A stretch of 64,000 bases of DNA from contig JAHBXR010000019.1 of assembly GCA_019636335.1 (NCBI GenBank), positions 62,001-126,000 on the forward strand. The letters run 5' to 3'. The position numbers and the translations under genes are program-made. The DNA is from Pirellulales bacterium. Lineage in GTDB: Bacteria; Planctomycetota; Planctomycetia; Pirellulales; JAEUIK01. Below are positions 6,968 to 34,493 of the stretch, in pieces. Below the pieces are notes generated by a model. The model was not told where the DNA came from, did no database searches, and saw nothing but the letters and a program-made list of their open reading frames with translations. Each line of letters starts with the position of its first letter. Position 1 is the stretch's first letter.

Positions 6968-6997
6968 GACGCCGGCGCTCCCCGCAAACTCGAAACT

Positions 6998-7954: not shown

Positions 7955-7976
7955 GACAATGGTCTCCCAGGCTCAA

Positions 7977-9443: not shown

Positions 9444-9476
9444 AGCTGCCTGCGCTTGGCGGACTTCCTAGCCGTA

Positions 9477-10583: not shown

Positions 10584-10650
10584 CGTATTCCTGCTTCCGC
10601 TAAGTTCGTGGTCTTGGCTGTGTTTGACCTGTCTACGTTCGACCCGCCTA

Positions 10651-11922: not shown

Positions 11923-12303
11923 GCTCCACTCCGAAAAGCTGCGCGTGGAGACCGCGTGCGGTGGGAGCAAGCTTCCACCCACGTGTCGCCACGGTTGGCG
12001 GCCCCGGCGATTCGAACGAACCACTCTGCCGCTGCGCGAAAATTCATGTGAAATGTCAAGAGACCGGCGAAGGATGGCCGGCCGAAAGCGGCACACGAGA
12101 GTGGAGACCCTGCCCCGGTCGTGCCGGAGCGAGAGTCGATGCTGTGCGCGCCGCGCTATTTCAATCCATTGAAGGGGCAATCGAATCCCGTCGAACGCTC
12201 GGCCTTCCTCCCGTCGCTTGGCTCCTGGATCGTTGTCTTGCCACCCCGATGGTTATCTTAGCGTGAATCATTCCTGTGCGTGTTGCTCAGACTCTCTTAT
12301 CGC
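11923..12303. other. Gap between tadG-like gene and cpaB, no gene seen
   Basis: About 380 nt. The minus-strand frame through it is open but gives a very Arg-rich translation without family likeness, so I do not count it as coding. A TTGACA hexamer occurs on the minus strand near 12056-12061, but no acceptable -10 element follows at 16-18 nt. A GGTGG/CCACC hairpin lies at about 11970-11990. Confidence 0.5.
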
Positions 12304-13272
12304 CTAACGTGCGCCACTGCCACTGCTGGGTTGGGTGGTGCGGCCAGGTGGCACGATGGGCGCCCCAATCGGCTCGTCCGCGCTGCTGCTGAACGACTCT
12401 TCGCGGGGGGGCGCGATATCGTCGCGCGGGAATTGCCTCGCCGAACCCGAACCTCGCGTGTAGACCTCGGTGATCCAAGGACCGGGCGGCTGCTCCCAAC
12501 CCAACACGTCCATAAACGTCGAGACCGTCGGTTGGCGACCGGCGCCGCCGGGCGCGGATGTTTCGTTCGGATCGCGCAACACGAGCGAGAGATCGCCGCG
12601 GCCTTCGACGATGGCCAGCCTGGCGGCCTGATCGGGAGTCACGGCAAACGTCACGGTGTTGATGTCGGCCGCGTCCTCTTCGATCATTTCACCCGGCGTC
12701 GTGTAAGGGCCGAGTGCGAGCACTTGCACGTTCTCCAGCAGCAGCTTGGTCATGTCCGGAAACGAAACGCGGCCTGGCCGCTCATCGAAGATCGACTTCG
12801 TGCGGAAGAACACGTCGACCATCGAACCAGGACCGGCAAAGCCCCCCACGGCATCGAGACCACTCAGCGGCACCGTCACCGCGCGTAAGCCCGGTTTCAA
12901 ATTGGCGGTCAGCGGAGGACGCGTTCCTTCCGGCATCAGCGAATCGGTAAGGAACGGCTGCAGCATGCGAACCGGTCGGCTCAAGCGACGACCGATGATT
13001 TGTTGCGGATTGAGCAACGTGCGATCGGGGTCGATGTTCTGATCCGCAATCTGCGCGGTCGTCATCGGCTTGATGACGATGTCTCCCATGCGGAGCAACT
13101 TGTCGGTCGGCAGATCCATCGCCGCCAATGGCACGTCGATCGCCGGCGGGGGAGCGGCGGCTTCCACCTCGGGCTCAGGACGCAAGTAGAGTCGCGCCAG
13201 GTAGGCACCTCCCAATCCGAACAGGAGAGCGAGAATGCCAAACGTCATAGTCTCGGTGCTGATGCGGGACAA
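12304..13272 (-). CDS. cpaB: Flp pilus assembly protein CpaB (RcpC)
   Basis: About 322 residues. The start chosen is TTG at 13270-13272, preceded 7 nt upstream by a perfect AGGAGG; the ATG at 13248 is an internal alternative. One N-terminal membrane helix (MTFGILALLFGLGGAYLARL) anchors a periplasmic SAF/CpaB domain: IDVPLAAMDLPTDKLLRMGD, NPQQIIGRRLSRPV, and LRAVTVPLSGLDAVGGFAGP followed by GSMVDVFF. The C-terminal 60 residues are polar and low in complexity. CpaB normally works with the secretin CpaC, which is not encoded nearby. Confidence 0.92.
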   Translation of the reverse strand: MSRISTETMTFGILALLFGLGGAYLARLYLRPEPEVEAAAPPPAIDVPLAAMDLPTDKLLRMGDIVIKPMTTAQIADQNIDPDRTLLNPQQIIGRRLSRPVRMLQPFLTDSLMPEGTRPPLTANLKPGLRAVTVPLSGLDAVGGFAGPGSMVDVFFRTKSIFDERPGRVSFPDMTKLLLENVQVLALGPYTTPGEMIEEDAADINTVTFAVTPDQAARLAIVEGRGDLSLVLRDPNETSAPGGAGRQPTVSTFMDVLGWEQPPGPWITEVYTRGSGSARQFPRDDIAPPREESFSSSADEPIGAPIVPPGRTTQPSSGSGAR

Positions 13273-13496
13273 TTCCTGTCCTCCTCGCTGAGTTCGATAC
13301 GAATCTTTTCGTGGGCGCCGCAACCATGTTCGCTCGTATGCAGGGCGTACCGGCAAGCGATCATCTTGCGTTACTGTTCAAAATGGTTTGCGCATTGCGC
13401 GGAACAAGTGCTGCGTATGGCGCGCCGGCGCGATGCCGTCCTTCCTCTGAGGGGAACGTGGGCAATCGCGGCAAGCAGCGCCAAGTCAGAAGCCCC

Positions 13497-13525
13497 AGTA
13501 TGTACGCGGTTTTTAGCTCCGTCAA
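13497..13525 (-). promoter_or_regulatory. Candidate sigma-70 promoter for the cpaB operon
   Basis: On the minus strand TTGACG (13520-13525), a 17-nt spacer and CATACT (13497-13502) match the -35/-10 consensus at 5 and 4 of 6 positions. It lies in the 365-nt gene-free gap between tadE and cpaB and would give a leader of about 220 nt. The rest of that gap shows no gene. Confidence 0.4.
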
Positions 13526-13637
13526 ACAAAACAGCGTTGACTTTTTGTACTCGTTTTCCGTCGTTGAGCGAGGGCGCCTGGGGCCGATCTATGGCCAGCG
13601 AGTCTACCCCTGCCTACGGGTTTTGGGGATGCGCTCG

Positions 13638-14075
13638 CTATTCTTGACGCATGATGCTGACCACGCTGAACTGCCGGTCGGCCAGGCTGAACCCGACAAT
13701 GGCCAGCAGATCAGGGGAGGCCGCCTGCATCGGGGCGATCAGTCGGACGCCGACCGGGTCGCCAGCAATGGCGCCGCGTTGAATCTCGATCTTCACAACG
13801 CTGCCCAGGCGATGCCCCAACAGCGATTGCAGCACGGTTTGGCGGATATCATCGTCGGTGCTGCCGGGCAAGGTCGCCACGCGGCAGGCGGCGCGACTAG
13901 CCAAGGCTAGTCGTTGGTTGCCCGACCAGAGCAGGCTGAGCTCGACGACCGCCAGGCAAAGTGCCAGAACGATCGGCAGAATCAGCAGCAGCTCGAAAGT
14001 GAGGATCGCCCCGCGGCGCCCGGTACGAGCGGATTGCCACTGCCGTCGCGACATGAATGGTGGGAACGCTGTCAT
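13638..14075 (-). CDS. TadE-like pilus assembly protein
   Basis: 145 residues with the TadE/TadF layout: a basic N terminus, then RRGAILTFELLLILPIVLAL, a pseudopilin-like helix with Glu shortly after the Gly. NQRLALASRAACRVATLPGS follows, with a short extracytoplasmic domain. Such minor pseudopilins are processed by the prepilin peptidase encoded just upstream. An alternative start at residue 8 (MSRRQ) would not change the call. It is separated by 365 nt from cpaB and may belong to a different transcript. Confidence 0.85.
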   Translation of the reverse strand: MTAFPPFMSRRQWQSARTGRRGAILTFELLLILPIVLALCLAVVELSLLWSGNQRLALASRAACRVATLPGSTDDDIRQTVLQSLLGHRLGSVVKIEIQRGAIAGDPVGVRLIAPMQAASPDLLAIVGFSLADRQFSVVSIMRQE

Positions 14076-14187
14076 CCAACGCCTCGTGATCTTCGTCAGA
14101 GCGTTTGTCGGAAAGCGTCCATGCCGCCGAAGTGCCGCGATTAGTATACGCAGAATGTGTCGGAGCTGCGCGAAATTGTTTTTGGGT

Positions 14188-14817
14188 TTATGTCACCAGC
14201 CAGGGGGCGGCTCCCAGGACGGGAATCGCCAGAATCCGCCAGGCCAGCAACACGAGCCACGTGCTGAGCGCCAACGGCAGCGCGAACGGCACAATACCCC
14301 GTCGCGGGGCAGGCTTGCCATCGGCCAGGGTGCGCTTGGGGCGCAAGGTTTCGAACAGGTTCTTGCGGCGGCCCCCCTTGCCGTCGAACCCCAGTAAATG
14401 ACGCAGCAGTCGATAGGCAAACCAACCGACGAAGCCGATCACGACCAGGATGGCGCTGACGAAGAAGACGTAGAGCGTCCCCTTGGCGCCCAGCCAGGCG
14501 CCGAGCGCCCCCATCAACTTGACGTCTCCCGCCCCACCTCCCCCTGTCAACCACAGCAACAGCAGGATGCCAAAGCCGGTCAGGAAGCCGACCAGCGAGT
14601 ATCCAAGTCCTGCCAGCCCCCCTGTCGTCACATGGAAGAGGAGTGCGGCGGCGAAGCCGGATACGGTGAGCCAGTTGGGCAACTTGCGGGTGCGGGCGTC
14701 CCAAAACGCGGCCACCAGCGTTAACACACCCACGGCGGCAAGAAATACGACAGTCGCGGCATTCACGGCTGGAAACAGCTCCGGCAAGAAGGGCGGCGAA
14801 GTACCGCTGCGGTCCAC
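14188..14817 (-). CDS. Prepilin peptidase, A24 family (TadV/CpaA)
   Basis: 209 residues, polytopic. The two catalytic aspartates of type IV prepilin peptidases are visible: Asp40 in WDARTRKLPNWL and Asp98 in the GxGD motif (GAGD at 95-98). Around six hydrophobic helices are present. It lacks the N-terminal methylase domain of PilD, as expected for the TadV/CpaA type. It should process the Flp-like pilin encoded at 15070-15405 and the TadE-like protein downstream. Confidence 0.92.
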   Translation of the reverse strand: MDRSGTSPPFLPELFPAVNAATVVFLAAVGVLTLVAAFWDARTRKLPNWLTVSGFAAALLFHVTTGGLAGLGYSLVGFLTGFGILLLLWLTGGGGAGDVKLMGALGAWLGAKGTLYVFFVSAILVVIGFVGWFAYRLLRHLLGFDGKGGRRKNLFETLRPKRTLADGKPAPRRGIVPFALPLALSTWLVLLAWRILAIPVLGAAPWLVT

Positions 14818-15008
14818 TCTAATCGATGGATTTCAAAGCCGGTAGCATCGCTGTGGTGTTTGTCGTCCGGTGACGAACCGCCGACGATGGAAGGCGTTCC
14901 GATTGTTCCGTCCATAACGCTCGTAACGAGCAAGCCCACGGCTCATGGATTTCCTGAGTACGAATTGGCTCTTAGTGCGGAAGCGACCGATGGGAGCCGC
15001 AGAAAAAG

Positions 15009-15045
15009 AAAAGGGTCCTGGGGGGAGACCCACCAGGACCCTTTT
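15009..15045 (-). terminator. Strong intrinsic terminator after the pilin gene
   Basis: A perfect 13-bp stem (15009-15021 with 15033-15045) is followed on the minus strand by a T-rich run. It lies 25 nt downstream of the pilin stop and separates pilin from the peptidase gene, as expected for a major subunit expressed at a higher level than the assembly genes. Confidence 0.92.
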
Positions 15046-15069
15046 CGGATATCCGCAGTACCGACAAAA

Positions 15070-15405
15070 CTAGCCGGGGGTGTGCGGCGTGGTGCAGACC
15101 TGCAGGCAGTGGCTGGTGTTGCCAGTCTGCGAGCAGCTCGAACCAACGGCGTCGCAAGCATCCGGAGCGTCGGTGAAGGCACTGGCCGAGGTGGCCGAGT
15201 GGTGACCGGTGGTCCCACCGAAGCTGTAGCTCTGGTTGATCGCACCGATGGCGTCGGCGACGTCGCCGAGCTCGGTCACGACAGCGGTACGGACCGAGCT
15301 CAGGCCGGTCACGACACCGATCACCAACAACGTGGCGACCAGAACCAATTCCGAAGAGACGATCGCACCGTCTTCTTCATTCCACAATCGACGAATTGCG
15401 GACAT
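15070..15405 (-). CDS. flp: Flp-like type IVb pilin
   Basis: 111 residues from the ATG at 15403-15405 with AAGGGAG upstream. The N terminus MSAIRRLWNEEDGAIVSSE matches an Flp leader: a short basic leader, Gly13 as cleavage site, then a hydrophobic helix (LVLVATLLVIGVVTGL). The Glu that usually sits at +5 of the mature pilin is at +6 here. Flp pilins are often only 50-80 residues; this one adds a Ser/Thr/Cys-rich tail with about five cysteines, which may form disulfides. It has its own sigma-54 promoter candidate and terminator. Confidence 0.85.
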   Translation of the reverse strand: MSAIRRLWNEEDGAIVSSELVLVATLLVIGVVTGLSSVRTAVVTELGDVADAIGAINQSYSFGGTTGHHSATSASAFTDAPDACDAVGSSCSQTGNTSHCLQVCTTPHTPG

Positions 15406-15510
15406 TTGTATCTCCCTTGATTGTGAGGCGTCCCATTCAGACTCTCGGTCGAACCACTTTGGCTCGACTCCCCCTGAGACGGGTGACCGCCTCAAGCACG
15501 CCCCACATAA

Positions 15511-16012: not shown

Positions 16013-16050
16013 TTATTCGGCAGTGGCCGGCGAAGTGCTCTTATCCGCGG
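15944..16050. repeat. Imperfect ~30-bp direct repeat duplicating the 3' end of the adjacent gene
   Basis: Positions 15944-15974 and 16022-16050 are nearly the same sequence (GTGGCCGG, then AAGTGCT and TTATCCGC in both), differing by a 2-nt indel and a few substitutions. The second copy encodes the C-terminal ADKSTSPATAE of the gene ending at 16013; the first lies beyond its stop codon. Confidence 0.7.
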
Positions 16051-17278
16051 GCACCAGTACGTCGCCGAGATCGACCTCGGTCGGGAATCGACCGCGCCAG
16101 AGCGATAGCGCGCGGCCGGCGTGCGTGAGAAAGGTGTAGTACTCTTCGACTTGCTCGTCGGTGAGATTGATGATGGCATTGCTCAGCCATTGCCCCGCTG
16201 CCGCGAGGACGTGACGCGGGGGGTGGACCTCCTCCGGCGCCAGCGACCACCATTCGAGCGGGTGCCCTGTCGCCAGGATATGGCCTGCCAGCGGGGATAA
16301 GTCGCCGGCGTTCTTCGGCTCGATGCCGATCCCAGCAGGCCAGTCCATGGTCCAATAGCCGTCCGGATGCTGGTTCTTCACCAGGATCTGGGTAATCCCC
16401 TGCAGATATTCGATGATGCGCTGGCGCCCCTCGGGAGAGAGGATTTTGTGCTCGTCGTCGATGCGCAACATCATCACCAGGGCATGCATGCGATGGTTCG
16501 CAGCGCACACTCCCTGGGGCACTTCTTGCCGCATGATGCGTTCTGCCAGAAAGTCGAAGTCGACTCGTTGGCCTTCCTGGGTCACCCAGTGCAGCGGCTC
16601 TTCCGCACTGCTTTTCGAGCCTGGCGCGTCCGGCAGGAAGAGGGTATAGGCCAGAGCCGACCACTCGTACTCCCACTGGTTCACGCTGAAATCTCGTAGC
16701 GATTGCTCGAGCATGGCGCGATATGTGGTCTGCTGTGTGGCGGTAGTCACCGGGAAATCGAGGGGCGTGCCTACCTCGGCCAGACCGGCAATCGTGTGAT
16801 CGTAGTGGCTCGATGAGCGCTGTCCCTCTTTGACGCGGACCTTCACGCCACCGCCGGGAATGTCCATCAGCAACGGGGCGGTTTCCGCGCCGAAGACCTC
16901 GACGAAGCGATGGTTGTCGAGCAACAGACGACGCATGTCTTCGCCCGAGATACAGGCTGGATTGCTGAACTTGGCATCGAGGCCCCAGAACCGCAGGGCG
17001 TGGTCGATGTTGTTGACTTTCGAGTCTTGGCCGTGGAATTTCGGCACCAGACGAGTCAGGACCTGACGCAATTGATCGTCGGAGACGACGACATTGTTGT
17101 TGTAGGTAGGACGCACGGTCAGCGGTTCGGACCGCAGCGGAGGCAGGGCCCGTTCGGCGCGGAGATCGCGGACGCGACTGGCGGCCCAGGCGGCCCCCGC
17201 GGCCAACAGAATCACCTGAACGACGACAAAGGCCGCCCAGCTTCGTTTTGCCCCGGACGCCGTGGTGGAGGGATGCAT
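16013..17278 (-). CDS. Membrane-anchored protein of unknown function next to the exosortase locus
   Basis: About 421 residues from the ATG at 17276-17278. One N-terminal membrane helix (AAFVVVQVILLAAGAAWAA) is followed by a large helical extracytoplasmic domain. A segment HPDGYWTMDWPAG resembles the QxxDGxW-type repeats of alpha/alpha-toroid proteins (squalene-cyclase-like fold), but only one copy is clear. Several conserved-looking His (NHRMHALVMML, GHILATGHPLEWW) could be functional. It is the last gene of the minus-strand run that also contains exosortase and EpsI. I do not recognise the family. Confidence 0.75.
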   Translation of the reverse strand: MHPSTTASGAKRSWAAFVVVQVILLAAGAAWAASRVRDLRAERALPPLRSEPLTVRPTYNNNVVVSDDQLRQVLTRLVPKFHGQDSKVNNIDHALRFWGLDAKFSNPACISGEDMRRLLLDNHRFVEVFGAETAPLLMDIPGGGVKVRVKEGQRSSSHYDHTIAGLAEVGTPLDFPVTTATQQTTYRAMLEQSLRDFSVNQWEYEWSALAYTLFLPDAPGSKSSAEEPLHWVTQEGQRVDFDFLAERIMRQEVPQGVCAANHRMHALVMMLRIDDEHKILSPEGRQRIIEYLQGITQILVKNQHPDGYWTMDWPAGIGIEPKNAGDLSPLAGHILATGHPLEWWSLAPEEVHPPRHVLAAAGQWLSNAIINLTDEQVEEYYTFLTHAGRALSLWRGRFPTEVDLGDVLVPADKSTSPATAE

Positions 17279-17343
17279 CTCGATACCCGTTCGTGCTTGC
17301 GCGAGGTGATTTACGGTCGGCGATTCGTGGCGTGGGCGAAAGC

Positions 17344-19026
17344 TCAGAATGCCCTTCTTGCTGGCGATTGAGCGGCCTGGGCCGCGGGCGCCGTGGGGGC
17401 GGGGTTCGCGGGGAGTTGTTCGGCAGGCTTGCGCTCGAGGATCAGCGCCGTCTCGTCTTCGTAGCGTGGGATCCAATCCTGGCTTTGTCGCAGCACGGGC
17501 GTCAGGATGGGTTGGCGTTCTTTATCGAGCACGACCGTGGTGATGCGATACCGATCGAGCAGCTCCTGCCAGCCTGGCTGGGCGTTGTAGATCTGGATGT
17601 AGTTCTTCCAAACCTCGGCCGGCAGCATGTGCAACTGCGTCGTGACGAACGGTTGCAGGCCGGGCGGGCCATCCCAAGTGAGCCAGTCCCCCCACCACTG
17701 CGGATTCCAAACCTGGCCGCTGGGTGGATTCGCCCGGAGGTAGGCGCTCGCGCCGCGCGGCGTGTAGCGGCTGTAGAGTTGCTCTGGAGTGCGCTCGGCG
17801 CCGCCGAGCAGCGGCCGGCTCAATCCGGATAACGCAAAGGCGATCCACACAAGCACCAGGCAGCAGAGCGTGTAGGTCCACTGGCTGCGCGTCGCCGACT
17901 CGGGCGCTGGTTCTGGCGTGGCCGTGCGCGGCCACCGCCTGTCGGCAATTTCGCCCAGGTGGGGCACGACGACCAGCGCGAACACCGGGGCGTACCAGGC
18001 CAGCATGCGGATCTGCCAGATTGCCGCTAGCCCAAACACACCGAGCAGCAGAACCTCGCGGGGATGGATGGGGCGCCGACTGTGACGCCACACGGCCAGC
18101 AGCACGACCCAAGACAGGGCGAATTCCCAACCGCCGATGCCCGTCAGCACCAGGGGGGTCCACTCCAGCACGTCGCGCAGGTTCGAGTTTGTCATGAACC
18201 CGGTCGCATAAATCAGCAGATCGAGACCGTAGGGGTTCAGCAGGGTTGCGATCGTGGCGATCTCGGTCAGGACGAGCAATTGCCGGACGTCGGTGTCGCC
18301 AGCCACGGCGGCGAACGAGCGCGTCCGCGCGGCGACCAGGATAAGTTGTCCCAGGAAGTAGCACCCCAGCAGGATCAGTCCACAGACGAACGAGCCGTGC
18401 AGATTAGCCCACAGGATGAAGAGCACGGGCACGCCCACCCAAAGGGGCGCATCGAAACGCTGCTGCTCAATCGGCTCTGTGCTGCTGCGACTTCCCCAGC
18501 GACTGCGTGTCAGCAACCAGCACAAGATCGCGAAGCATAGCGCGCCGAACATCTCGGGTCGAATCGTCGAGAGCCGGCTCCAACCGACGGCGCCGAGCAG
18601 CAGCAGCCCCGCCAGCACGAGCGCGATTCGACGCGTTTCAAGGAAAAAGCTCCGCGCAAAGAGCAGATAGGTCGAGAAAACGACGATCGCGAAGGAGTTC
18701 GACAACCATTCGTCGCCACCCCATTGCTGGATCTGCGCGAGGATGACCTGCGAGAGCCACGCCGAGTCGACCACGCGCATGCCTTGGGCCAGCGGCAGGA
18801 AGGGCTCGCTCGTCGGCAACTCGCGATGGGCGAGGATCCATCGGCCATAGTCGACGTGCGACCAGAGATCGGTGTGCCAGAGCGGAATGTAGTTCAGGTA
18901 CAGAAAGAAGGCCGCCAGCGCCGCCACCAGCACGACATGCTTCTTGCGCAGGGCCAAATGCGCGGGGAGCACCGGCGTGAAGAGCGCCTTCTCGGGAGGC
19001 GACGAAGGCTCGCTTGCAACCGACAT
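17344..19026 (-). CDS. Polytopic membrane protein with C-terminal soluble domain, unknown function
   Basis: About 560 residues from the ATG at 19024-19026 (a TTG 21 nt earlier is possible). About ten hydrophobic helices are followed by a soluble C-terminal domain of about 150 residues. The first extracytoplasmic loop contains an acidic/His pattern (WHTDLWSHVDYGRW) like that seen in GT-C type lipid-linked glycosyltransferases, so a glycosyl-transfer role is possible but unproven. It lies between the TPR gene and the membrane-anchored unknown in the exosortase locus, which would fit modification of exported or surface proteins. Confidence 0.75.
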   Translation of the reverse strand: MSVASEPSSPPEKALFTPVLPAHLALRKKHVVLVAALAAFFLYLNYIPLWHTDLWSHVDYGRWILAHRELPTSEPFLPLAQGMRVVDSAWLSQVILAQIQQWGGDEWLSNSFAIVVFSTYLLFARSFFLETRRIALVLAGLLLLGAVGWSRLSTIRPEMFGALCFAILCWLLTRSRWGSRSSTEPIEQQRFDAPLWVGVPVLFILWANLHGSFVCGLILLGCYFLGQLILVAARTRSFAAVAGDTDVRQLLVLTEIATIATLLNPYGLDLLIYATGFMTNSNLRDVLEWTPLVLTGIGGWEFALSWVVLLAVWRHSRRPIHPREVLLLGVFGLAAIWQIRMLAWYAPVFALVVVPHLGEIADRRWPRTATPEPAPESATRSQWTYTLCCLVLVWIAFALSGLSRPLLGGAERTPEQLYSRYTPRGASAYLRANPPSGQVWNPQWWGDWLTWDGPPGLQPFVTTQLHMLPAEVWKNYIQIYNAQPGWQELLDRYRITTVVLDKERQPILTPVLRQSQDWIPRYEDETALILERKPAEQLPANPAPTAPAAQAAQSPARRAF

Positions 19027-19173
19027 AAGCTGGTTCGACGTGCTCAAGGGTGAAGGACAGAAAGTTACCTCGGTAACCGCGCGCGGCGCCCCGCGCCGAC
19101 CGTGGCACGCCCGGCCGACGACTCGTGAGGGAGCCGCCGGCCAGGCAGGGGATCGGCTCGGTAGTCAGCCGTA

Positions 19174-22100
19174 CTACTTCAACGAATCGAGAGCCCGCTG
19201 AGCATCGGCCTCGTCGATGTTCGGCAGTCCCAACGAGAGCGCCTTGGTGAGCGCTTCGCGGGCGGTATCGGCCTGGCCGTTGCTGATTAAAATCATGCCC
19301 TTCTGGTAGAGCAGCAGCGCCTGGTCGGGGTTCTTTTCGAGCGCTTTGTCGACCAGTTGCATACCTTCATCGAGCCGCTCCATCGCACGCAGGATGCGCA
19401 CGTAGCTGTCGATGACCTCGGTCGGCATCATGTCGCGAGACTTCCCCTTCAACGCGTTGTCGAGCAGAGTCAGCCCACGCTCCGGCTGGCCGAACACCGT
19501 GCCCAACAGCAAGGCGAGGTTGTTCGCCGTCACGATATCCTCGGGACGCGCGAGATTGACCTGCTCGAACTGCTTCACGGCCTCGGCCAGCAGATCGCGA
19601 TTGCCCTCGGCCATGCCTTGCGCCATCTGAATTTCACCGAGGCGTCGGGCACATTCGATGGGGTCGCCACCGTTGGTTCGCGCCTGGTTCACCCAGACGG
19701 CCGCCTCGTTGGCCGCGCCGGCCTGGAAGAAAATGCCGGACACCACCAGGCACACTTCCGGGCTGGGGTTTTCTCCGGCGATCTCCTGGATGATCTTCTG
19801 AGCTTCGGGGATACGCTTGCTCTTGGCGAGGATCTCGATCTGCAAACGCGCCAGCGAGAGCTCCTCGGGCATCTCCTCGCGCCCGTCGGCCAGTACGGTG
19901 AGCGCTTCGTCGATGTCGTTATGGCTTTGCAGCAGGCGCGCCAGTTCTCGATAACCAGTCGCGTTCTTGGGTTGCTCGCGAATCAACGTGCGCAGCACGC
20001 CGAACGCCGAATCGTACTGCTCGAGCCGGAACTGCGCGGTCGCCTGCAAGGGGTACAGCTCCCACAGCTCGCGGTTCTGACCGATCGCCGCGATGGCGTG
20101 CCCCGCCGCTTCATCGTAACGATCTTGCATGAAGCAGAGCTTGGCCGCCATGACGCGCGCATCGGTAAAGAGCGGATCGATTTTCAAGATGCGATTCAAC
20201 TCGTCGATGGCTTTGTCGAACTCACGCAGTTCGACCCAAGCCGATGCCTTGACGAGCGACAAAGGCTTGTTGTTGGGCTCCATCTCGTTCAGCTCGCTGC
20301 GACGATCGAGCCGGCACAAGGACAGGATCTCCCAACGCTGCATCAGGTCGCGGAACTGCTTCAGTTCGGTGGCCCCTTCGAAACGCTTGCGCCCCGCGCG
20401 GGCGGCGGCCAGCGCCTCATCGAGCCGCCCCGCTTCGTAATACTCTCGGAACAGTTGCTCGTGAGCCCGATACATGCCGGGCTGCGCCTCGACCAACCGC
20501 TTGGCCACCTCGATCGCCTGATCGTGCTGACCCAAGCCACGCAGCGCCGAGGCCTGCGTGAGGTAGGCATCCCAGTACTGGTTGTTCAACTTCAAGGCGG
20601 CGCGCGAATAATCGAGCGCCTTCTGGTATTGACCCATCGCCTCGGCGGCCTCGGCGCCTTCGACGATCAGCCCGAGTTGCTCGGCCTGGGCCTGTCCCAG
20701 AGCGCTGACCGGCAGCGATTCTTCGATCACCTCCATGGCCAGGTCCGGGCGACCTTCGGCCAGGTGCGTGCGGACCCGCATGAAATCGTTCGCCGTCTTG
20801 GCCTTGGGCTGGATGGCGATCAGTCGGTCGAGCGTCGACTTGGCGACGTCGTACTTTTTCAGCCGCAAGGCGATGTTCCAACGCTGGAACAACAGGTAGG
20901 GGTCTTGCGGGTTCGCCTCGAGCAGCTTGTCGACCTTCAACTCAGCCGCTTCGGGGCCCTCGCGACGAATCAACTCGTCGAGCGCCCCCTCGAGCAGTCT
21001 TTGGGCCTGTTGCCGCATGCTGCTCACGCCCAGCACGCCGGCCAGGGTGTCGATCGCCTGCGAAACGTTTCCCATGCGGGCTTCGGCCAGCGACTTCATG
21101 AACCGTAGCGACGAGCCATTGCGGCCATCAGCGTCCATCTGGGCAAAGAGACGCGCGGCCTCTTCATAGTTCTCCGTGTGCAAGGCGATCTGTGCCCGAA
21201 TCGCCAGGCTGATACCCTTGCCCCCCGGCAGCTTGGCGATCTTGGCCGCCAAGGCGTTCGCCTTCTCCCACTCGTTGTCCGACATGTGGATCTGCGACTT
21301 GATCAGCAGCACCACGGGCTTGTCGGGAAAGCGTTCCTCCATCTTGACGAGGAACTCGTCGACTTCATCGCGACGTCCTTCGCGCAACAGATACGTCACG
21401 AACTGGTGGTGCGCTTCGAGGTTTTCGGGGTGCTCGTCGACGAAGTTGCGCAGCAACTCGTCGGCCTGGTCTTTCTGATCCAGCTCCCAATAGGCGGTCA
21501 CCTGAGCCAGCAGCAGCCCCAGATCGTGGGGAAAGTCCGTGCGGGCCGCGGCCAGACGGCGCAAGGCTTCGTCGCGCTGTCCCGAAGCCCAAAGGTACTG
21601 CACACGCAGCTCGCGGGCACGCGGAGCCAGCTCGCGATCGACTTCGATGGCCTGCAGGTGGACTTCGGCAGCTTCGTAGCGGTTCAGATCGATCAAGGTC
21701 CGCGCCTGGGCGAGATGGATCTGCGGGGCGCTACTCAGGAAGCCGCCGGCGATCTTCTCGGCATCGTTCACGGTCAGATCGGCGATCTGCGGATGGAGCC
21801 GATCGAGATACTCGAGCGCGTCCTCTTTCATGCCCAGCCGCAACAGGTTCTCTGCCATGGTAACGTTCACCAGGAACGTGTCCCCCATGAGCTGGCGGGC
21901 CTGGGAGATTTCCTCGATCGACTTTTCGCGGTTGCCGTCGACCATGGCCACCAGGCCCGCGACGAGATGAGCCCAACCCTGGTAATTCTTGTTCGTGCTC
22001 GCCTTGAGCACTTTGACGTGGGGCTCGGTTAGCCGAAATTTGCCGGCCCGCATCAACTCCGTGCAGTAAAGGTGATGCAGACGAAGCACCTGGTCCGACA

Positions 22101-23190
22101 TTTCTGTCGAGGATTCCGAGGCACGGACGATGCCTTGGTCGAGATAGCGGAAGCCCGCGTCATCGTTGCCGGCAGCGAACGCCGAGCGAGCCAAGGCCCA
22201 ATAGATACGCGGCGTGGCGGTCTGCGCCGCGATGGCTTTCTTGGCCAGCGTTTCGACGCGCGCCGCGATCGCCGCACGGCGTTCTCGCTCTTCCTCACTA
22301 TCGGTCGGCGTCGAAAAATTCGGCAGGATCGCGATGTGTGCCCGGGCCGCGGTATCGCTGATCAGGCCGATCATGCGCGGCTCGTTGCCGACGAGCTTGA
22401 GCAGACGCTCGAGCACGTCGAGCGCCACGCCGAGACGGACCTGGCCCGCTTCGACGCCGGGGGCCATTTCGACCCCCGCGGCCAGCAGCCGCATCAACTG
22501 CTCTTGCTGCGGGCCAGTCATCCCCTGGAGTTGCTCGTCCGTCAGATTACTGGTCAACGAGACGGCCTGTTCCACTAACTCGTTGGTGCGCTTCGGATCC
22601 TTGAGCCCGTCGACGATCTGGGCCTTGAGCATCAAGGTCGCGAGCGAGGGGGTCTTTTCGAGTTCGGAGACCTTGTCGAGCCGCGAGAGTGCTTCCTCCA
22701 ACTGTCCCGCCTGATGGGCCTGCCGCGCCAGCACGAACTGCGCGGTGGCATCGTTGGGATCGAGCCGCGAGACGATCGTGGCCGTGCGAATCGCCACCGG
22801 TTCCGCCTCGCCACCGTAGTCGACGAAGGCGTGCATCAACAGACGCTGGATGTCGAGATTGTCGGGCGCCAGGTCCGCGGCGCGGATCAATTCCTCCATC
22901 GCCGGACGTTCTGACGCGAACGACGCGCGGGGGTTTTGTTTCTTCGCTTCTTCGACCAGCAATTCCGCGATCATCACGCGGGCCTGTGCGTTATTGGGCT
23001 CTTTCTGCAGCAAGCGACGCAGGTGGACAATCGCCGTCGGGTAGTCCCCCGCCTCGCGCGCGGCGTCGGCCTTGTTCTTGTCGAAGCTGGGTTGATCTCG
23101 CAGCATGTTCAGGCCCAACAGCCCTGCCACGATCAGGATCATGGCCACGAGCAGGCCACGCACGAGATAACGCGTCGTCGAAATTGCCAC
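19174..23190 (-). CDS. Giant TPR protein of the exosortase locus (PrsT-like role possible)
   Basis: 1338 residues from a GTG start with GAGGA upstream. One N-terminal membrane helix (YLVRGLLVAMILIVAGLLGL) is followed by a continuous array of TPR-type helical hairpins covering nearly the whole chain (for example AREAGDYPTAIVHLRRLL, ALDYSRAALKLNNQYWDAYL, AREALTKALSLGL). The layout predicts a membrane-tethered superhelical scaffold outside the cytoplasm. Large TPR proteins (PrsT type) are typical companions of exosortase in PEP-CTERM/EPS loci. 75 nt separate it from epsI. The number of repeats needs a profile search. Confidence 0.88.
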   Translation of the reverse strand: MAISTTRYLVRGLLVAMILIVAGLLGLNMLRDQPSFDKNKADAAREAGDYPTAIVHLRRLLQKEPNNAQARVMIAELLVEEAKKQNPRASFASERPAMEELIRAADLAPDNLDIQRLLMHAFVDYGGEAEPVAIRTATIVSRLDPNDATAQFVLARQAHQAGQLEEALSRLDKVSELEKTPSLATLMLKAQIVDGLKDPKRTNELVEQAVSLTSNLTDEQLQGMTGPQQEQLMRLLAAGVEMAPGVEAGQVRLGVALDVLERLLKLVGNEPRMIGLISDTAARAHIAILPNFSTPTDSEEERERRAAIAARVETLAKKAIAAQTATPRIYWALARSAFAAGNDDAGFRYLDQGIVRASESSTEMSDQVLRLHHLYCTELMRAGKFRLTEPHVKVLKASTNKNYQGWAHLVAGLVAMVDGNREKSIEEISQARQLMGDTFLVNVTMAENLLRLGMKEDALEYLDRLHPQIADLTVNDAEKIAGGFLSSAPQIHLAQARTLIDLNRYEAAEVHLQAIEVDRELAPRARELRVQYLWASGQRDEALRRLAAARTDFPHDLGLLLAQVTAYWELDQKDQADELLRNFVDEHPENLEAHHQFVTYLLREGRRDEVDEFLVKMEERFPDKPVVLLIKSQIHMSDNEWEKANALAAKIAKLPGGKGISLAIRAQIALHTENYEEAARLFAQMDADGRNGSSLRFMKSLAEARMGNVSQAIDTLAGVLGVSSMRQQAQRLLEGALDELIRREGPEAAELKVDKLLEANPQDPYLLFQRWNIALRLKKYDVAKSTLDRLIAIQPKAKTANDFMRVRTHLAEGRPDLAMEVIEESLPVSALGQAQAEQLGLIVEGAEAAEAMGQYQKALDYSRAALKLNNQYWDAYLTQASALRGLGQHDQAIEVAKRLVEAQPGMYRAHEQLFREYYEAGRLDEALAAARAGRKRFEGATELKQFRDLMQRWEILSLCRLDRRSELNEMEPNNKPLSLVKASAWVELREFDKAIDELNRILKIDPLFTDARVMAAKLCFMQDRYDEAAGHAIAAIGQNRELWELYPLQATAQFRLEQYDSAFGVLRTLIREQPKNATGYRELARLLQSHNDIDEALTVLADGREEMPEELSLARLQIEILAKSKRIPEAQKIIQEIAGENPSPEVCLVVSGIFFQAGAANEAAVWVNQARTNGGDPIECARRLGEIQMAQGMAEGNRDLLAEAVKQFEQVNLARPEDIVTANNLALLLGTVFGQPERGLTLLDNALKGKSRDMMPTEVIDSYVRILRAMERLDEGMQLVDKALEKNPDQALLLYQKGMILISNGQADTAREALTKALSLGLPNIDEADAQRALDSLK

Positions 23191-23265
23191 GGCAGTCGTT
23201 CCTCACCGGAAAGAGGAGAATGAAAGGGTCTGGGTGGCGTTCCGTCGCCGTGTACGTGTGGGCGC

Positions 23266-24003
23266 CTAACTACTAGTCGGGGCGCCGGCGCTGCCCGGCC
23301 GGGCAGCGGCTTCTGTCTCGGTTGCGGTGGTTCCGTCGTCGACGCGAATCACCGGGCTGCGGCGGCTGCCGCGTTCGGCGTGCGGCGGCAGGATCTCCTG
23401 CACGGCCGCGTCCAGATCGATCACGAATTGTTGCAGCGTCTCGACGTCGGCACCCGCCGGCGCGAAGACTTCGAGGGTCATGCTCGAAGGACGCTTGCGC
23501 ATCCGCTGAAAGGTACGCTGCAATTCGTCGAGCTCTTCGTTCGGCGGTGGATTCAACGTGTAGTGCCAGTAGAAGACCCACTGGCTGTCTTGCTGCGTGC
23601 CGAATTGGTATTGCTGGACGGGCTGCGGGAAGCCAGGCACGTCGAGCGTCGTGCGGGCCGAGGTGTTTTCTGGTCGGCCCGCCACGGCCATGCAGATCTC
23701 GGGATGGTGGCCGCGATCTTCGCCATCGGCCGCGTAGACGATCCACACCAACGCGCCTTGGATATTGCCGAGGCGATAGGCACGCTGGATATAGTCCTCG
23801 CCAAATTTTTGATTCTCGTCGGTGACTTCGACGTCTTCTCCCACCCAACCGCCGATTTCCATCGGCAGTTCGGCCAGCGGACGAGCCGGCATCACGGTCT
23901 GTAACTCGCCAGGAGCTTTCAGGTATTGCACGAGCAGCAGGTGCGCCAACAGGCACGCGCCGACGACCACTGCGACTGCGATGAGACGTAGGCCGAATTT
24001 CAC
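23266..24003 (-). CDS. epsI: EpsI domain protein (DUF3485), exosortase-associated
   Basis: About 245 residues from a GTG at 24001-24003 with GAGGG upstream; longer frames add an Arg/Cys-rich stretch that looks non-coding. One N-terminal membrane helix is followed by the EpsI domain. Hallmarks are LPMEIGGWVGEDVEVTDE, a central HHPEICM motif (the invariant Cys/His region of the family) and a WVFYWHYTLN segment. EpsI occurs fused to or beside exosortase in many genomes; its exact reaction is unknown. It lies directly downstream of the exosortase gene. Confidence 0.88.
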   Translation of the reverse strand: MKFGLRLIAVAVVVGACLLAHLLLVQYLKAPGELQTVMPARPLAELPMEIGGWVGEDVEVTDENQKFGEDYIQRAYRLGNIQGALVWIVYAADGEDRGHHPEICMAVAGRPENTSARTTLDVPGFPQPVQQYQFGTQQDSQWVFYWHYTLNPPPNEELDELQRTFQRMRKRPSSMTLEVFAPAGADVETLQQFVIDLDAAVQEILPPHAERGSRRSPVIRVDDGTTATETEAAARPGSAGAPTSS

Positions 24004-24165
24004 CAGGAAACACCCTCGGGCGAACCATCTTCGACACGAATCAGCCGCCCCACGCGACCTTGTCACCGAGCGCGAACTCGCCGAACGGCTCGCTCTGCAA
24101 ACGCTCGTGACGCCCCTTCGACAACAACTCACGCTCGCTACGTACGAAACTGCCGCAGCGCTACT

Positions 24166-25155
24166 CTAGCTCGGTTCGGTCGCCACGGTATTCGTGGCGG
24201 CGCCATCCGCACGCGTGGCGTCCGTTTCCGAATTACCATCCTGGCGACGTCCGCCCCAACCGTAGGCGTCGTCCAGGTTCGCCAGAAACAAAGCCGTGGC
24301 CACCATTAGTACTGTCCCTAATACCAGCATAAGGAGTCCTTCGATCGTGTGAAACACCCCCTCGGCCCATTCTCGCCCGAACAGCAGCAGGATGAACGCG
24401 GTGACCAGCACGCGAACGCAATTCGTCGCGATGGCGATGGGCAACCCCATCATGCCGACGACCCATTTGTAGGCCCGGCCGCGATCGCTCAAATGCGCCA
24501 AGATGACCCCCAGCGCCAAAAACGCCGTGATCTGCCGCGTGCCGCTGCACGCCGGTCCGACCTCCAGGTATCCGGCGGATAATTGCAGTTTGTAGCCCTC
24601 GCGGTAGACGGGAATTTGCAGCACTTCCAGCACGAAGGTCGAGACCACGCTCACGAGCTCTTGCAGGAAAACCGCCAGGGGCTGGTAGATCGCCATCGGC
24701 AAGGGGGCCGCAAACAGCAGGAAGAACACGGCGAAGCTGTAGCCACGACTGACCTCGTTGCCCCCCATCGCCAGCAGAAAACCACGCAGGATGAACACCA
24801 GACCCAGTAAGTCGAACAAGGGCTGAGCCACGAACCAGCCCGCCAGATGAATCATGAATCCCAGGGCGATCTCTAGCACCCCCAGCAGCACGGTCTGGCG
24901 CGGCACGTTCGCTCGAAAGGGTGGGCCCACCTGTTGCCAGCCCAGATAGGTTAAGTAGGCACAGACCAAGGGAATAAAGAACCCATGCGAGTAGTTCGGG
25001 TCGTTCTCCCAGGTGTTCACGAGCTGCACGAAGCTGTCGCGGTACATGACACCAAGGGCGGCCGCGAGCAGTCCCCATGCTGTCCAGCCCCACCAGCCGG
25101 CGGGCGAGTCGGCCCGCCACGAGGGGGCTGGGGCTGCTGTAGACGACGTCGACAT
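24166..25155 (-). CDS. Exosortase (cysteine transpeptidase-like membrane enzyme)
   Basis: About 329 residues from the ATG at 25153-25155; polytopic with about eight helices. The catalytic triad of exosortases is visible: Cys203 in GPACSGTRQ, Arg248 in TNCVRV and His269 in FHTIEG. The early motif NDPNYSHGFFIPLV is also typical. It should cleave PEP-CTERM signals of exported proteins such as the divergently encoded 25944-29591 product. The C-terminal 35 residues are a polar tail after the last helix. The exosortase subfamily cannot be named from the sequence alone. Confidence 0.95.
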   Translation of the reverse strand: MSTSSTAAPAPSWRADSPAGWWGWTAWGLLAAALGVMYRDSFVQLVNTWENDPNYSHGFFIPLVCAYLTYLGWQQVGPPFRANVPRQTVLLGVLEIALGFMIHLAGWFVAQPLFDLLGLVFILRGFLLAMGGNEVSRGYSFAVFFLLFAAPLPMAIYQPLAVFLQELVSVVSTFVLEVLQIPVYREGYKLQLSAGYLEVGPACSGTRQITAFLALGVILAHLSDRGRAYKWVVGMMGLPIAIATNCVRVLVTAFILLLFGREWAEGVFHTIEGLLMLVLGTVLMVATALFLANLDDAYGWGGRRQDGNSETDATRADGAATNTVATEPS

Positions 25156-25943
25156 CGAAGGCACCGCTACCGGGTTCGAGTGAAAACGGGATCGTGGCGT
25201 CTGGGCCGTCGGGGGACGAGAAACGCCGCCTCCTACCAGCCACACAAGGCAACCCGCGAGGTGCATTCAAGTGTGGATGAGGCTGGCTTGGCACGCTGGT
25301 AGACGGGCACATCGAACCGGCTATGCCCGTGCTACAACTGGCGATTCGCGCGAAGCGAGCCGTCAGATCCCCCCCGGGACGGTCGAGAACGTGCCTTCCA
25401 GTTTAACCATGATCCCTGCGCACGCGAGCAGAAAGCAAAAAAAGCAGCCCGACGAAAGGTCGTGGAGAAGTGTCGAGGGAAATCGAAAAGATTTTCAAGA
25501 ATTTACTGGCAGACCAAAAAACGGCTTGGTAAACTCGGCGACCGTGGTAGCTATGGTCAAGCGATAGCATATGCGCGGATAAAAGGGCCTTTTGCACGAT
25601 GTTGAGAGTCAGCGGCCAAGCCAGCATGGCGTTTCGGGCGAGGCGCAAAGACACCTTAACAATGTAAATGGCGCCAGTAAGCCGGCATTTACGCTTTCTA
25701 CGGATTTTGAGCGGCGGGTGATGAACATTGTTTTCCCTAACTAACTTACAGGTCGTTGGTTCAAAAAACGTGTCGCGCAAGGCACGGATTTTGCTTTACA
25801 AGTCGTAGCTTACTGTGCACCTACTGCGCGGGTTGCTTGCAAACCCGCTGTCAGCGGGGGGGATTGAGACAACATTGATGGCGGTTGGCCTCGGTTTCGC
25901 CAAACCTAGCTCAGCTGATCGAACCTCTAGGAAGGGCCAGCAA
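25156..25943. other. Intergenic region between exosortase and the PEP-CTERM protein gene
   Basis: 788 nt without a convincing gene on either strand; locally AT-richer near 25480-25800. It should hold divergent promoters. Near the PEP-CTERM start two overlapping hairpins exclude each other: 25828-25834 with 25842-25848, and 25845-25850 with 25852-25857. A good Shine-Dalgarno sequence (GGAAGGG) lies before the ATG at 25944. Confidence 0.5.
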
Positions 25944-28900
25944 ATGAGTTCTCTGCGGACCAAGTTTCTTGTAGCGTCGCTACTTTCCCTGGCTATGTGT
26001 GTTGCCACGGAACGTGCGTCGGCTATTCCACTGACGTTTATTGACGGTGGTGGTGACGATCAGTCGTTTACGGCTACGATCACCGCCACGGGCGGTGTGA
26101 CGGTGAGTGGCCAGATCAACTTCACCTTGCGGACCTCGCTCGGTTTCCTGGGTAATGCCTCGGCGCCGGGTAATATTAACATCAACCCGCAGTTCAGCGC
26201 GATCTCGCTGACGGATGGTATCAACCCGGGTCCTGTCAGCATTAACCGGAATCCGACCGGTTCGGGTACGTTGACGCTCGCTAGCCCCCCGCAGTCGTTG
26301 CAGAACGCGGTGGTCAGCAACGTCACGGCGAACCTGCTCGGGCCTGGCGGTGCGGTTCCGCTTCAGTCGAACACGATCAGTTTCAATGGTGACGGTAATA
26401 TCACCCTGATTGGCATCAACTTCGACTTGAGTGCCAACGTGCAGGCCGACTTGACCGGCCAGATTGGCTCGCTGACGTATCAGCAGACCGGCAGCAATAT
26501 GTTCAACGCACCGGGTACCTTGGCTGCCACGCCACCAAATAACTTCTCGACCAACTACCTGATCGATTCGTCAGGGAGCGGTGGTAACCTCGGTGGTGCC
26601 TTGACGGGCGATATCAGCGGTAACGCGAATTTGAATATCGCTGGCCTCTTTAATACCCCCTTCAATCTCGGCACGATTGCGTCGATCAACGAAGTATTGA
26701 ACGAGGCAATTCCGACGTTGGCTGGTACCGGTTCGATTCAAGACTTGGAGCCGGGGGTGTTCAGTGGCCCTGGTCGCGATATCCGCACCACGGTCAACCC
26801 TTCGGTGCCGAGCTTCATCCCGCTAGCGTTCAACTTCGCCGCCACTTCGGTGGAAAATTTGACGCAGCAGGTCACGAACATCGATGCCGCTGGTGCCACC
26901 TGGACGGCCTGGATCTCTGGTGTCATTACGTTCAACATGGGCATCGACATCACGGTGTCGGGTTTGGACATTAAATTGCAGGATACAACCGCAGATGCCT
27001 TGCAGGTGCCGGTGCTGACCACCACGCCCTCGGCCGGTGGTACGCTCAACTTTGGTAACGTGCTCGTTGGCACGGCCCAAAACGGTAATCTCACGGTTCA
27101 AAACCTGGGTACGAACGGCAGTGTGATCTCGGGTACCTTCCCGAACGGTGGTGGTGAGTTTAGCCCCCTCTCGTTCCAGGCGTTTGGTCCCATCGCGGCG
27201 AACACCCCGGGTGAAACGCGAGTCTATACCTACACGCCCACTGGCCGTGGTGCGGACACGCTGAATCGCACGATCACGAGCGATTCGGGGAGTGCGCCCG
27301 TTCAGTTTGCGGGTCGTGGCGTGGCTCCGGTCTCGGCTGCCACCGGGGGTGACGCGGGCTATGTGCTCGTCGGTACCTCGGGCAACGCCATCTCGACGGT
27401 CACCAACAACGGTGACGGTAATCTGTCGGGCCTGGGCGCCGTCAGTAACTTGAATGGTACCGCTTCGGGTGGTGGTGGTGAGTTCGTTCTGTCGGGTCCC
27501 GCTGGCATCAGCCTGTTGGATCACACCTCGACGAATCTGAATTACACCTACACGCCCACCTCGCGTGGTGCCGATTCGCAGAATATCACGCACGGCTTCA
27601 GCAATGGTAACCCGAGCGGTAACAATACCGCTCATAACCAGACGGTCACGGTCACCGGCCAGGGTGTTGCCCCGGTCAGTGCCGCGACGGGCGCCGCGGT
27701 CAACACGCCGGGTGCCTATACCCTGGTGGGTACGACTGGTCAGGCCACGGCGACGGTCACCAACAATGGTGACGGTAACCTCTCGGGTCTGGGTGCGGTC
27801 AGCAATCTCAACGGCACGGCCTCGGGTGGTGCTGGCGAGTTCTCGCTGAACGGTTCGAACGTGATCAGCCTGCCGGATCACACCTCGCAAAATCTGGTGT
27901 ACGACTACAACCCGACCGCGCGTGGTGCCGATTCGGAAAACATCACGCACGTCTTCACCAACGGTAGCCCGGATGGCACCAACTCGGCTCACAACCTGCA
28001 GGTCACGCTGACTGGTCAGGGTGTGGCTCCGTTGGCCGCCGCGGCCGGTGGCGCCGTGAGTGTGCCGGGCGCCTATACGCTGGTCGGCACGACGGGCCAG
28101 GTGATTACCTCGGTCACCAACAACGGTGACGGTAACCTCTCGGGTCTGGGTGCGATCAGCAATCTGAACGGTACGTTGTCGGGCGGTGCTGGTGAGTTCT
28201 CCTTGTCCAGTCCGGCTGTGGTGAGCGTCCCCGATCATACGACGATCAACCCCGTGTATGATTACAACCCGACCGCTCGTGGTGCGGATTCGGAGAATCT
28301 GGTCCACAGCTTCACGAATGGTAATCCGGACGGCACCAACACGGCCGTCAACCTGCAGATCAACGTGACTGGTCAGGGTGTGGCCCCGCTGACGACTCCG
28401 GTCGATCAGTCGGCCAACAACGCCGGCTTCATCCTGGTTGGTACTTCGGGCACCGCTTCGGTCTCGATGACCAACAACGGTGACGGTAATCTGTCGGGTC
28501 TGGGTGCGGTCAGCAACCTGAACGGCACGCTGCCGACGACACTGGGTGAGTTCAATCTGACCAGCTCCCCCACGCCGCTCGGAACGATCAGCGTTCCCGA
28601 TCACACCACGCACACCTACTCGTATACCTATACGCCGACGGGTCGTGGTGCGGACTCGGAAAATGGTCTGATGTCGTTCACGAATGGTAGCCCCGATGGT
28701 ACCAACCAGGCCACGAGCGAGGCCTACGTCGTTCAGGGTCAAGGTGTTGCCCCTGTGCAGGCTACTTCCTCGGTTGACGCTCCTCTTACCCGTATCACCT
28801 ACCTGACTCCGGGTCCGGGCAACACGAATCCGCCCTCGGTCACGGTGCATAACAATGGTGACGGCAACTTGTCGGGCCTAGGTGCGGTCAGCAACCTGAA

Positions 28901-29591
28901 CGGTACGATTGATACCGGAACGGATGCTCGCTTCACGGGTGGTGGTGCGGCCTTCAGCCTGACTGACCACACGAATGTCAACTACGCCATCAACTACCAG
29001 CCGACCACCCATACCATCGACTCGAGCACCTTCACCGTCTCCTTCTCGAACGGAAGCGCTGACGGCACGAATCAGGCTCAGGTCGTACCGGTGACGGTGA
29101 GTGGCCAAGGTGTGGGCCCGATCTTCAACGGACTGCCGTACGATACGGACAACAACCCGGCTCCGGGCAACACCCTGGACTTCGGTAGTGTCGTGATCGG
29201 TGCCAACGGCCAGCTTCAGCTCGATATCAGCAACATCACCACCGATCCCAATGGTGGCGATCCGACGCTGACCGACATGACGCTGATTTCGGCGACGATC
29301 ACCGGTCCGGATGCGGTTGAGTTCTCGCTGCCCGGGTTCGTCCCCGGTACGGTAATCAGTGCCGGTGGCCTGATCTCCTACTTCGTGAACTTCGATCCGC
29401 TCTTCCCGCCGGGGATCAAGACGGCTACGTTGACCTTCCTCACCGACGAGGATGCGGTCTTCGGCATGCCGGGGAACTCCTACTCCTTCACGCTGGTCGG
29501 TCTGGCTGCTCCGGAGCCGGCAAGTGTGTTGGGATTCGCTCTCTGCACGATCGGTGGTGTGGTAGCTTACCGCCTCCGCCGCCGTCGCTAA
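25944..29591 (+). CDS. Large tandem-repeat PEP-CTERM surface protein
   Basis: 1215 residues from the ATG at 25944. A signal peptide (about 1-27, ending ERASA) is followed by a beta-rich region of about 350 residues and then tandem units of 118-119 residues. Each unit contains NNGDGNLSGLGAVSNLNGT, a DHT motif, an RGADS motif and an (F/G)QGVAP end. Four units start near 27360, 27717, 28074 and 28428, with a diverged fifth near 28794. Flanking segments LNFGNVLVGT and LDFGSVVIG look like choice-of-anchor D / ASH Ig-like strands. The C terminus is a complete PEP-CTERM signal: PEPAS, a hydrophobic helix, then RLRRRR. Glycine is mostly GGT here but GGC in neighbours, which may reflect high expression or foreign origin. 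Confidence 0.95.
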   Translation: MSSLRTKFLVASLLSLAMCVATERASAIPLTFIDGGGDDQSFTATITATGGVTVSGQINFTLRTSLGFLGNASAPGNININPQFSAISLTDGINPGPVSINRNPTGSGTLTLASPPQSLQNAVVSNVTANLLGPGGAVPLQSNTISFNGDGNITLIGINFDLSANVQADLTGQIGSLTYQQTGSNMFNAPGTLAATPPNNFSTNYLIDSSGSGGNLGGALTGDISGNANLNIAGLFNTPFNLGTIASINEVLNEAIPTLAGTGSIQDLEPGVFSGPGRDIRTTVNPSVPSFIPLAFNFAATSVENLTQQVTNIDAAGATWTAWISGVITFNMGIDITVSGLDIKLQDTTADALQVPVLTTTPSAGGTLNFGNVLVGTAQNGNLTVQNLGTNGSVISGTFPNGGGEFSPLSFQAFGPIAANTPGETRVYTYTPTGRGADTLNRTITSDSGSAPVQFAGRGVAPVSAATGGDAGYVLVGTSGNAISTVTNNGDGNLSGLGAVSNLNGTASGGGGEFVLSGPAGISLLDHTSTNLNYTYTPTSRGADSQNITHGFSNGNPSGNNTAHNQTVTVTGQGVAPVSAATGAAVNTPGAYTLVGTTGQATATVTNNGDGNLSGLGAVSNLNGTASGGAGEFSLNGSNVISLPDHTSQNLVYDYNPTARGADSENITHVFTNGSPDGTNSAHNLQVTLTGQGVAPLAAAAGGAVSVPGAYTLVGTTGQVITSVTNNGDGNLSGLGAISNLNGTLSGGAGEFSLSSPAVVSVPDHTTINPVYDYNPTARGADSENLVHSFTNGNPDGTNTAVNLQINVTGQGVAPLTTPVDQSANNAGFILVGTSGTASVSMTNNGDGNLSGLGAVSNLNGTLPTTLGEFNLTSSPTPLGTISVPDHTTHTYSYTYTPTGRGADSENGLMSFTNGSPDGTNQATSEAYVVQGQGVAPVQATSSVDAPLTRITYLTPGPGNTNPPSVTVHNNGDGNLSGLGAVSNLNGTIDTGTDARFTGGGAAFSLTDHTNVNYAINYQPTTHTIDSSTFTVSFSNGSADGTNQAQVVPVTVSGQGVGPIFNGLPYDTDNNPAPGNTLDFGSVVIGANGQLQLDISNITTDPNGGDPTLTDMTLISATITGPDAVEFSLPGFVPGTVISAGGLISYFVNFDPLFPPGIKTATLTFLTDEDAVFGMPGNSYSFTLVGLAAPEPASVLGFALCTIGGVVAYRLRRRR
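27360..29150 (+). repeat. Tandem array of ~357-bp coding repeats
   Basis: Unit starts at about 27360, 27717, 28074 and 28428 are spaced 357, 357 and 354 bp, with a more diverged unit from about 28794. The core encoding NNGDGNLSGLG is almost identical in all five. The array lies entirely in frame inside the PEP-CTERM gene. Confidence 0.9.
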
Positions 29592-34400: not shown

Positions 34401-34493
34401 CAGTTTCGGATGCGGCCGAAGGCTGAGAAACCCACGGGGATTACAATTCAAACTGGTGCAGGACCCAACGTCCCCCCAGCGAGAACTAGACTC

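Follow-up and report, generated by a model that had tools for sequence, protein, structure and literature searches.

We propose that the exosortase gene cluster in this 64-kb window (the whole stretch of DNA that was analysed) forms the head of a second-type Tad (Flp) pilus locus and serves there for modification and sorting, a reading to which we assign a probability of about 0.5. The six genes of the preliminary description, two of which encode membrane proteins that it could not recognise (here called proteins A and B), are open frames at the positions and on the strands that it gave (Table 1). The locus as first delimited was too short: the minus-strand run passes beyond position 16013 into a Tad/Flp pilus locus (15495-5894), whose genes lie on the same strand, downstream of A. 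Proteins A and B form an obligate gene pair that is tied to Tad systems with long-tailed pilins both by gene neighbourhood and by presence at the genome level and, in the window and a few relatives, this pair is preceded by a dedicated exosortase clade, EpsI and a giant TPR protein.

Table 1. Genes of the exosortase-A-B run, the divergent repeat protein and the adjoining Tad locus, with positions in the window.
Feature	Position	Strand	Characteristics
Protein A	16013-17278	-	421 aa; N-terminal membrane anchor (helix 8-42) and (alpha/alpha)6 toroid, predicted
Protein B	17344-19047	-	567 aa; OST-like GT-C membrane protein, predicted
TPR protein with N-terminal anchor, PrsT-like	19174-23190	-	1338 aa; TPR and TIGR02917 scores
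EpsI	~23266-24072 (start approximate)	-	PF11984
Exosortase	24166-25266 (true start possibly 25155)	-	PF09721, triad intact
Choice-of-anchor D repeat protein with PEP-CTERM tail	25815-29591	+	Divergent from the run
Long-tailed Flp-like pilin	15070-15495 (likely start ~15405)	-	Profile built in this analysis
Prepilin peptidase TadV	14188-14817	-	PF01478, 70.6 bits
TadE-like pseudopilin	13638-14075	-	PF07811, 29.2 bits
CpaB/RcpC	12304-13356	-	TIGR03177, 131 bits (cut-off 71); CpaB tree
TadG-like protein	10651-12180	-	PF13400, 29 bits
CpaE/TadZ-like MinD-family protein	9477-10583	-	TIGR03815, 54 bits (below cut-off)
CpaF/TadA ATPase	7977-9443	-	T2SSE, 220 bits; TIGR03819, 348 bits
TadB-like protein	6998-7954	-	T2SSF, 75 bits
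TadC-like protein	5894-6967	-	T2SSF, 51 bits

Our survey of A and B covered 57 genomes belonging to the same order, plus 80 loci of named planctomycete genomes. Both proteins are conserved over approximately 100 loci, and therefore are not chance open frames; wherever the flank is available (74 loci), B adjoins A. The preliminary description took them for components of the exosortase module and itself named, as the observation that would speak against this, homologues lying mainly away from exosortase genes. Such is their distribution: an exosortase is found in only 2 of the 80 A-B loci, whereas 45 have a Tad or Flp gene in the vicinity of the pair, and among loci with at least 8 kb of sequence on both sides the corresponding figures are 1/29 and 18/29. 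Chance nearness to Tad is expected for about half a percent of loci, a value inferred from approximately 1.3 CpaB genes per 5.7-Mb genome. Four genomes (G020, G031, G036, and G044) possess A-B and lack any exosortase, and the second A-B copy of the window's genome, on contig C34, likewise lies beside a Tad locus. No Tad gene was found in the available sequence of 35 of the 80 loci, many of them short contigs, and a search for another common neighbour in these loci found none. They leave some room for a different view, in which A-B would be an autonomous envelope-glycan pair with several targets (it might, for instance, build or attach a glycan of the cell surface), and its nearness to Tad and exosortase genes would reflect the clustering of adhesion and matrix genes. 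ArnT and arabinosyltransferases also use GT-C folds, the fold predicted for B (see below), and exosortases classically occur among exopolysaccharide genes (PMC1569441). We consider this alternative less likely than the Tad-based reading; Tad is the sole recurrent neighbour of A-B and the phylogenetic profile of the pair follows the second Tad system even in genomes where the two are unlinked.

At the genome level, at least two CpaB loci are present in 19 of 21 A-positive versus 2 of 36 A-negative genomes (p = 6e-11) and a Tad system with long-tailed pilins, recognised solely by a profile that we built and trained on A-B-linked loci, in 17/21 versus 1/36 (p = 7e-10; undetected in four A-positive genomes), p values that overstate the independence of related genomes and show direction more than exact strength. 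Since A tracks this second, long-tailed-pilin Tad system, A-B is mainly a Tad-2 accessory pair, usually without an exosortase partner. A quick tree of CpaB set a 50-row housekeeping clade (support 99) apart from all 12 A-B-linked sequences and from a second CpaB of six genomes in which A-B is unlinked (G006, G015, G031, G032, G044, and G049). When A and B were combined in one tree, the pairs linked to an exosortase (those of the window, L066, L096, and L110) shared a 15-row subclade with Tad-linked pairs.

The exosortase is a real part of the window locus. It matches PF09721 (E = 2e-56) and reaches 150 bits against TIGR02602 (cut-off 105.55), with the 8TM EpsH fold and a Cys/Arg/His triad that is intact (PACSGTR, NCVRV, and FHTIEG), as first described. 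It scores below the cut-off for XrtA (TIGR03109, 156 versus 208 bits) and, like the fused homologues tested, below those for XrtW (NF038142) and XrtD (TIGR04152). EpsI passes the PF11984 (DUF3485) cut-off (44.6 versus 26.1 bits) and stays below that of TIGR02914 (18.4 versus 42.8), and the TPR protein, with TPR repeats at E values down to 3e-47, stays below the PrsT cut-off (TIGR02917, 183 versus 312 bits). Exosortase systems are known to include a TPR protein, PrsT, and an EpsI that is either fused or adjacent (PMC1569441). The window exosortase belongs to a distinct, class-wide clade in which Xrt and EpsI are often fused in one frame, and it falls in one group with the exosortases of G015 and G032, after each of which, as in the window, come EpsI, TPR, B, and A; L096 also shows EpsI-TPR-B-A, at the edge of its contig, and L330 and L344 have Xrt/EpsI-TPR-B but no A. 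The initial view of exosortase, EpsI, TPR protein and both unrecognised proteins as one unit holds as far as this recurrent order goes, although the run is not confined to them and extends into the Tad locus. Across the 25 loci of this exosortase clade, the TPR gene adjoins Xrt/EpsI in 20, and a Tad gene or B lies within 10 kb in 10, a lower bound given the limited flanks, versus none of the 23 control exosortases (p = 7e-4). In G282, a Tad locus encloses the genes for Xrt, EpsI, and TPR. The possibility that the exosortase is unrelated to A-B was dropped because its clade is enriched for B and Tad neighbours. The Xrt-EpsI fusions (L327, L328, L330-L333, L335-L339, L341, L342, and L344), which, as far as they were tested, do not reach the cut-offs for XrtW and XrtD, represent a putative, unnamed planctomycete exosortase subtype.

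The gene divergent from the run encodes a protein that has choice-of-anchor D repeats (78.9 bits, six stretches) and ends in a weakly matching PEP-CTERM tail (14.7 bits when scored per protein, with a cut-off of 16, and 16.9 in the genome scan). It had been described as the one dedicated substrate of a self-contained export, sorting and modification module; on that view, it would be the target of A and B. Such a module would fit the conserved gene order in G015 and G032, kept in part in L096, L330, and L344, and the nearby PEP-CTERM-like proteins of the window and of L325, L328, and L344. Nevertheless, approximately 31 proteins of the window's genome exceed the Pfam PEP-CTERM cut-off, a second exosortase of another clade is encoded in it, and a search with a strict pattern found no PEP-CTERM protein beside the cluster in G015, G032, and L096, nor was one found in L066 and L068. 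Neither the self-contained nature of the module nor its single substrate withstands these observations and, given also the scarcity of exosortases at A-B loci and the genomes that have the pair without one, we consider this explanation unlikely. Further along the window (32889-35603, plus strand), a family-less 503-aa multi-spanning membrane protein adjoins a GDSL-hydrolase protein, possibly a gene pair for acyl modification of surface glycans.

The window copy of protein B had no Pfam match at E<=1, none of 69 B members matched STT3, AglB or PglB in Pfam, and a sequence search against solved structures returned nothing significant. The solved folds nearest to its predicted structure (pLDDT 92.5) are those of the oligosaccharyltransferases STT3, AglB, and PglB (Foldseek E = 2e-7; Z of 19.2, 15.9, and 15.2, respectively). 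The model combines a GT-C fold with a C-terminal globular domain comparable to that of AglB-S2 (Z 9.6, rmsd 2.2). By fold, B is thus a predicted oligosaccharyltransferase-like GT-C protein, in agreement with the GT-C likeness proposed for it at the outset. The conserved stretches of the B family (TDLWGH, VLEWxPL, and WWGDWL) read TDLWSH, VLEWTPL, and WWGDWL in the window copy, where the D60, E295, and D454 motifs are intact. By eye, they resemble the aspartate of EL1, the SVSE glutamate of EL5, and the WWDYG motif of the oligosaccharyltransferases. D60, E295, and WWGDWL are present in the window copy and in most lineages, whereas D60 (putative EL1 aspartate) and E295 (putative EL5 glutamate) are lost in the Blastopirellula/Rhodopirellula lineage (L109, L112, L114, L125, L127, L131, L132, L135, L136, L139, L141, and L143-L146), which keeps the fold region and the link with A and Tad, so that the predicted catalysis would not be universal. 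Locus L134 carries a second B-like GT-C gene (6089-7714) directly upstream of the usual B-A pair.

Protein A likewise had no Pfam match at E<=1 and gave nothing significant in the sequence search against solved structures. The profile and structure searches suggested in the preliminary description, while assigning neither protein to a Pfam family, yielded a predicted fold for both: that of A (pLDDT 93.1) is a membrane anchor followed by an (alpha/alpha)6 toroid, with Z of 16.7 to GH105 (266 residues, rmsd 3.6) and 15.9 to class II terpene cyclases. Four of 71 A members touch the GH105/GH88 profile PF07470, with a best E value of 0.038. The invariant residues of A are H158, D160, H161, E168, E203, E205, R247, C258, H262, Q303, H339, E342, and H386. 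Within a large family of planctomycete envelope proteins with the motifs ACGGTHRL, LQNPDGSFSTEWF, and TSGHILEW, copies of which (e.g., L024-L032) occur in most genomes of the order, protein A is the member associated with Tad-2. A TGHxLEW motif first suggested an AGE-type epimerase; this assignment was rejected because the fold does not single it out, with GH105, terpene cyclases, transcobalamin, and epimerases scoring alike. Both proteins might instead be structural, non-catalytic pilus assembly factors whose GT-C and toroid folds have been co-opted for scaffolding, as could be suspected from the lineage that lost D60 and E295 of B while keeping A and the Tad link. This seems improbable since the B motifs are kept in most lineages and A has numerous invariant residues (His, Glu, Asp, Arg, and Cys) that resemble an active or binding site.

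With CpaB/RcpC, TadA ATPase, TadB/TadC, TadE/G, and prepilin peptidase genes found together, the region 5894-15495 is a Tad pilus locus, one of three in this genome along with that on contig C34 and the housekeeping locus on contig C2. The RcpA/CpaC secretin is absent from the window Tad locus, the whole of contig C19, and the C34 locus, and lies only beside the housekeeping Tad genes on C2; the window and C34 systems may share a secretin or use another exit. The Flp pilin of the window has no Pfam or NCBIfam match. The pilin tails contain 18% Ser+Thr, versus 11-14% in control proteins, and their N-x-S/T sequons are at chance level (23 observed versus 24.2), so that sequon-based N-glycosylation of the tails is unsupported. 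RcpC has been reported as implicated in Flp pilin glycosylation (cited in PMC12307814). In L070, L088, L132, and L143, tandem genes for long-tailed pilins with diverging C-terminal tails are found beside A-B, possibly an instance of pilin diversification.

From the linkage, the phylogenetic profile, and the predicted folds, we infer a mechanism in which the Tad machine would assemble the long-tailed pilins at the inner membrane, and B, as an OST-like GT-C enzyme, would take a lipid-carried sugar or oligosaccharide and attach it to an exported protein, with the Ser/Thr-rich tails of the pilins as the likeliest target. Protein A, a membrane-anchored toroid presumably facing the periplasm, may bind or trim the glycan of B, the TPR protein would be the scaffold of the complex, and the exosortase with EpsI would release or anchor PEP-CTERM surface proteins accompanying the pilus. 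The outcome would be a glycosylated adhesive fibre together with sorted surface proteins. This complete scheme of a second planctomycete Tad pilus with a built-in envelope unit, with long pilin tails glycosylated by the OST-like enzyme and companion surface proteins sorted by a dedicated module of exosortase, EpsI, and TPR protein, is tentative. If true, it would give a testable role to two uncharacterised and widely conserved planctomycete envelope proteins, provide candidate enzymes for planctomycete adhesive fibres, and join exosortase sorting with Tad pili, two surface systems that we did not find mentioned together in the literature searched. Our literature searches also gave no dedicated study of a planctomycete oligosaccharyltransferase or a planctomycete Tad system.

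Compared with known systems, protein A shares its predicted fold with GH105/GH88, class II terpene cyclase, and AGE-epimerase toroids but differs in having no sequence family match and an invariant residue set of its own. Protein B resembles STT3, AglB, and PglB over the whole length of its predicted fold, including the C-terminal domain, and, as judged by eye, in the similar positions of its motifs; in contrast with them, it has WWGDW instead of WWDYG, no Pfam match, and candidate acceptors, the pilin tails, without sequon excess. The exosortase part recalls the proteobacterial XrtA/PEP-CTERM system (EpsH, EpsI, and PrsT) in its intact-triad exosortase, EpsI, giant TPR protein, and nearby PEP-CTERM protein, whereas its scores below the XrtA and PrsT cut-offs, its distinct clade with frequent Xrt-EpsI fusion, and its Tad and B neighbours set it apart. 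The pilus genes (prepilin peptidase, TadE, CpaB/RcpC, TadG, CpaE-like, CpaF, TadB, and TadC) are those of a Tad/Flp (type IVc) pilus but, unlike in a typical locus of this kind, the secretin is lacking in the window, the pilins are long (~100-120 aa) with Ser/Thr-rich, often Cys-containing tails, and the A-B pair, joined in the window by exosortase, EpsI, and TPR protein, stands at the head.
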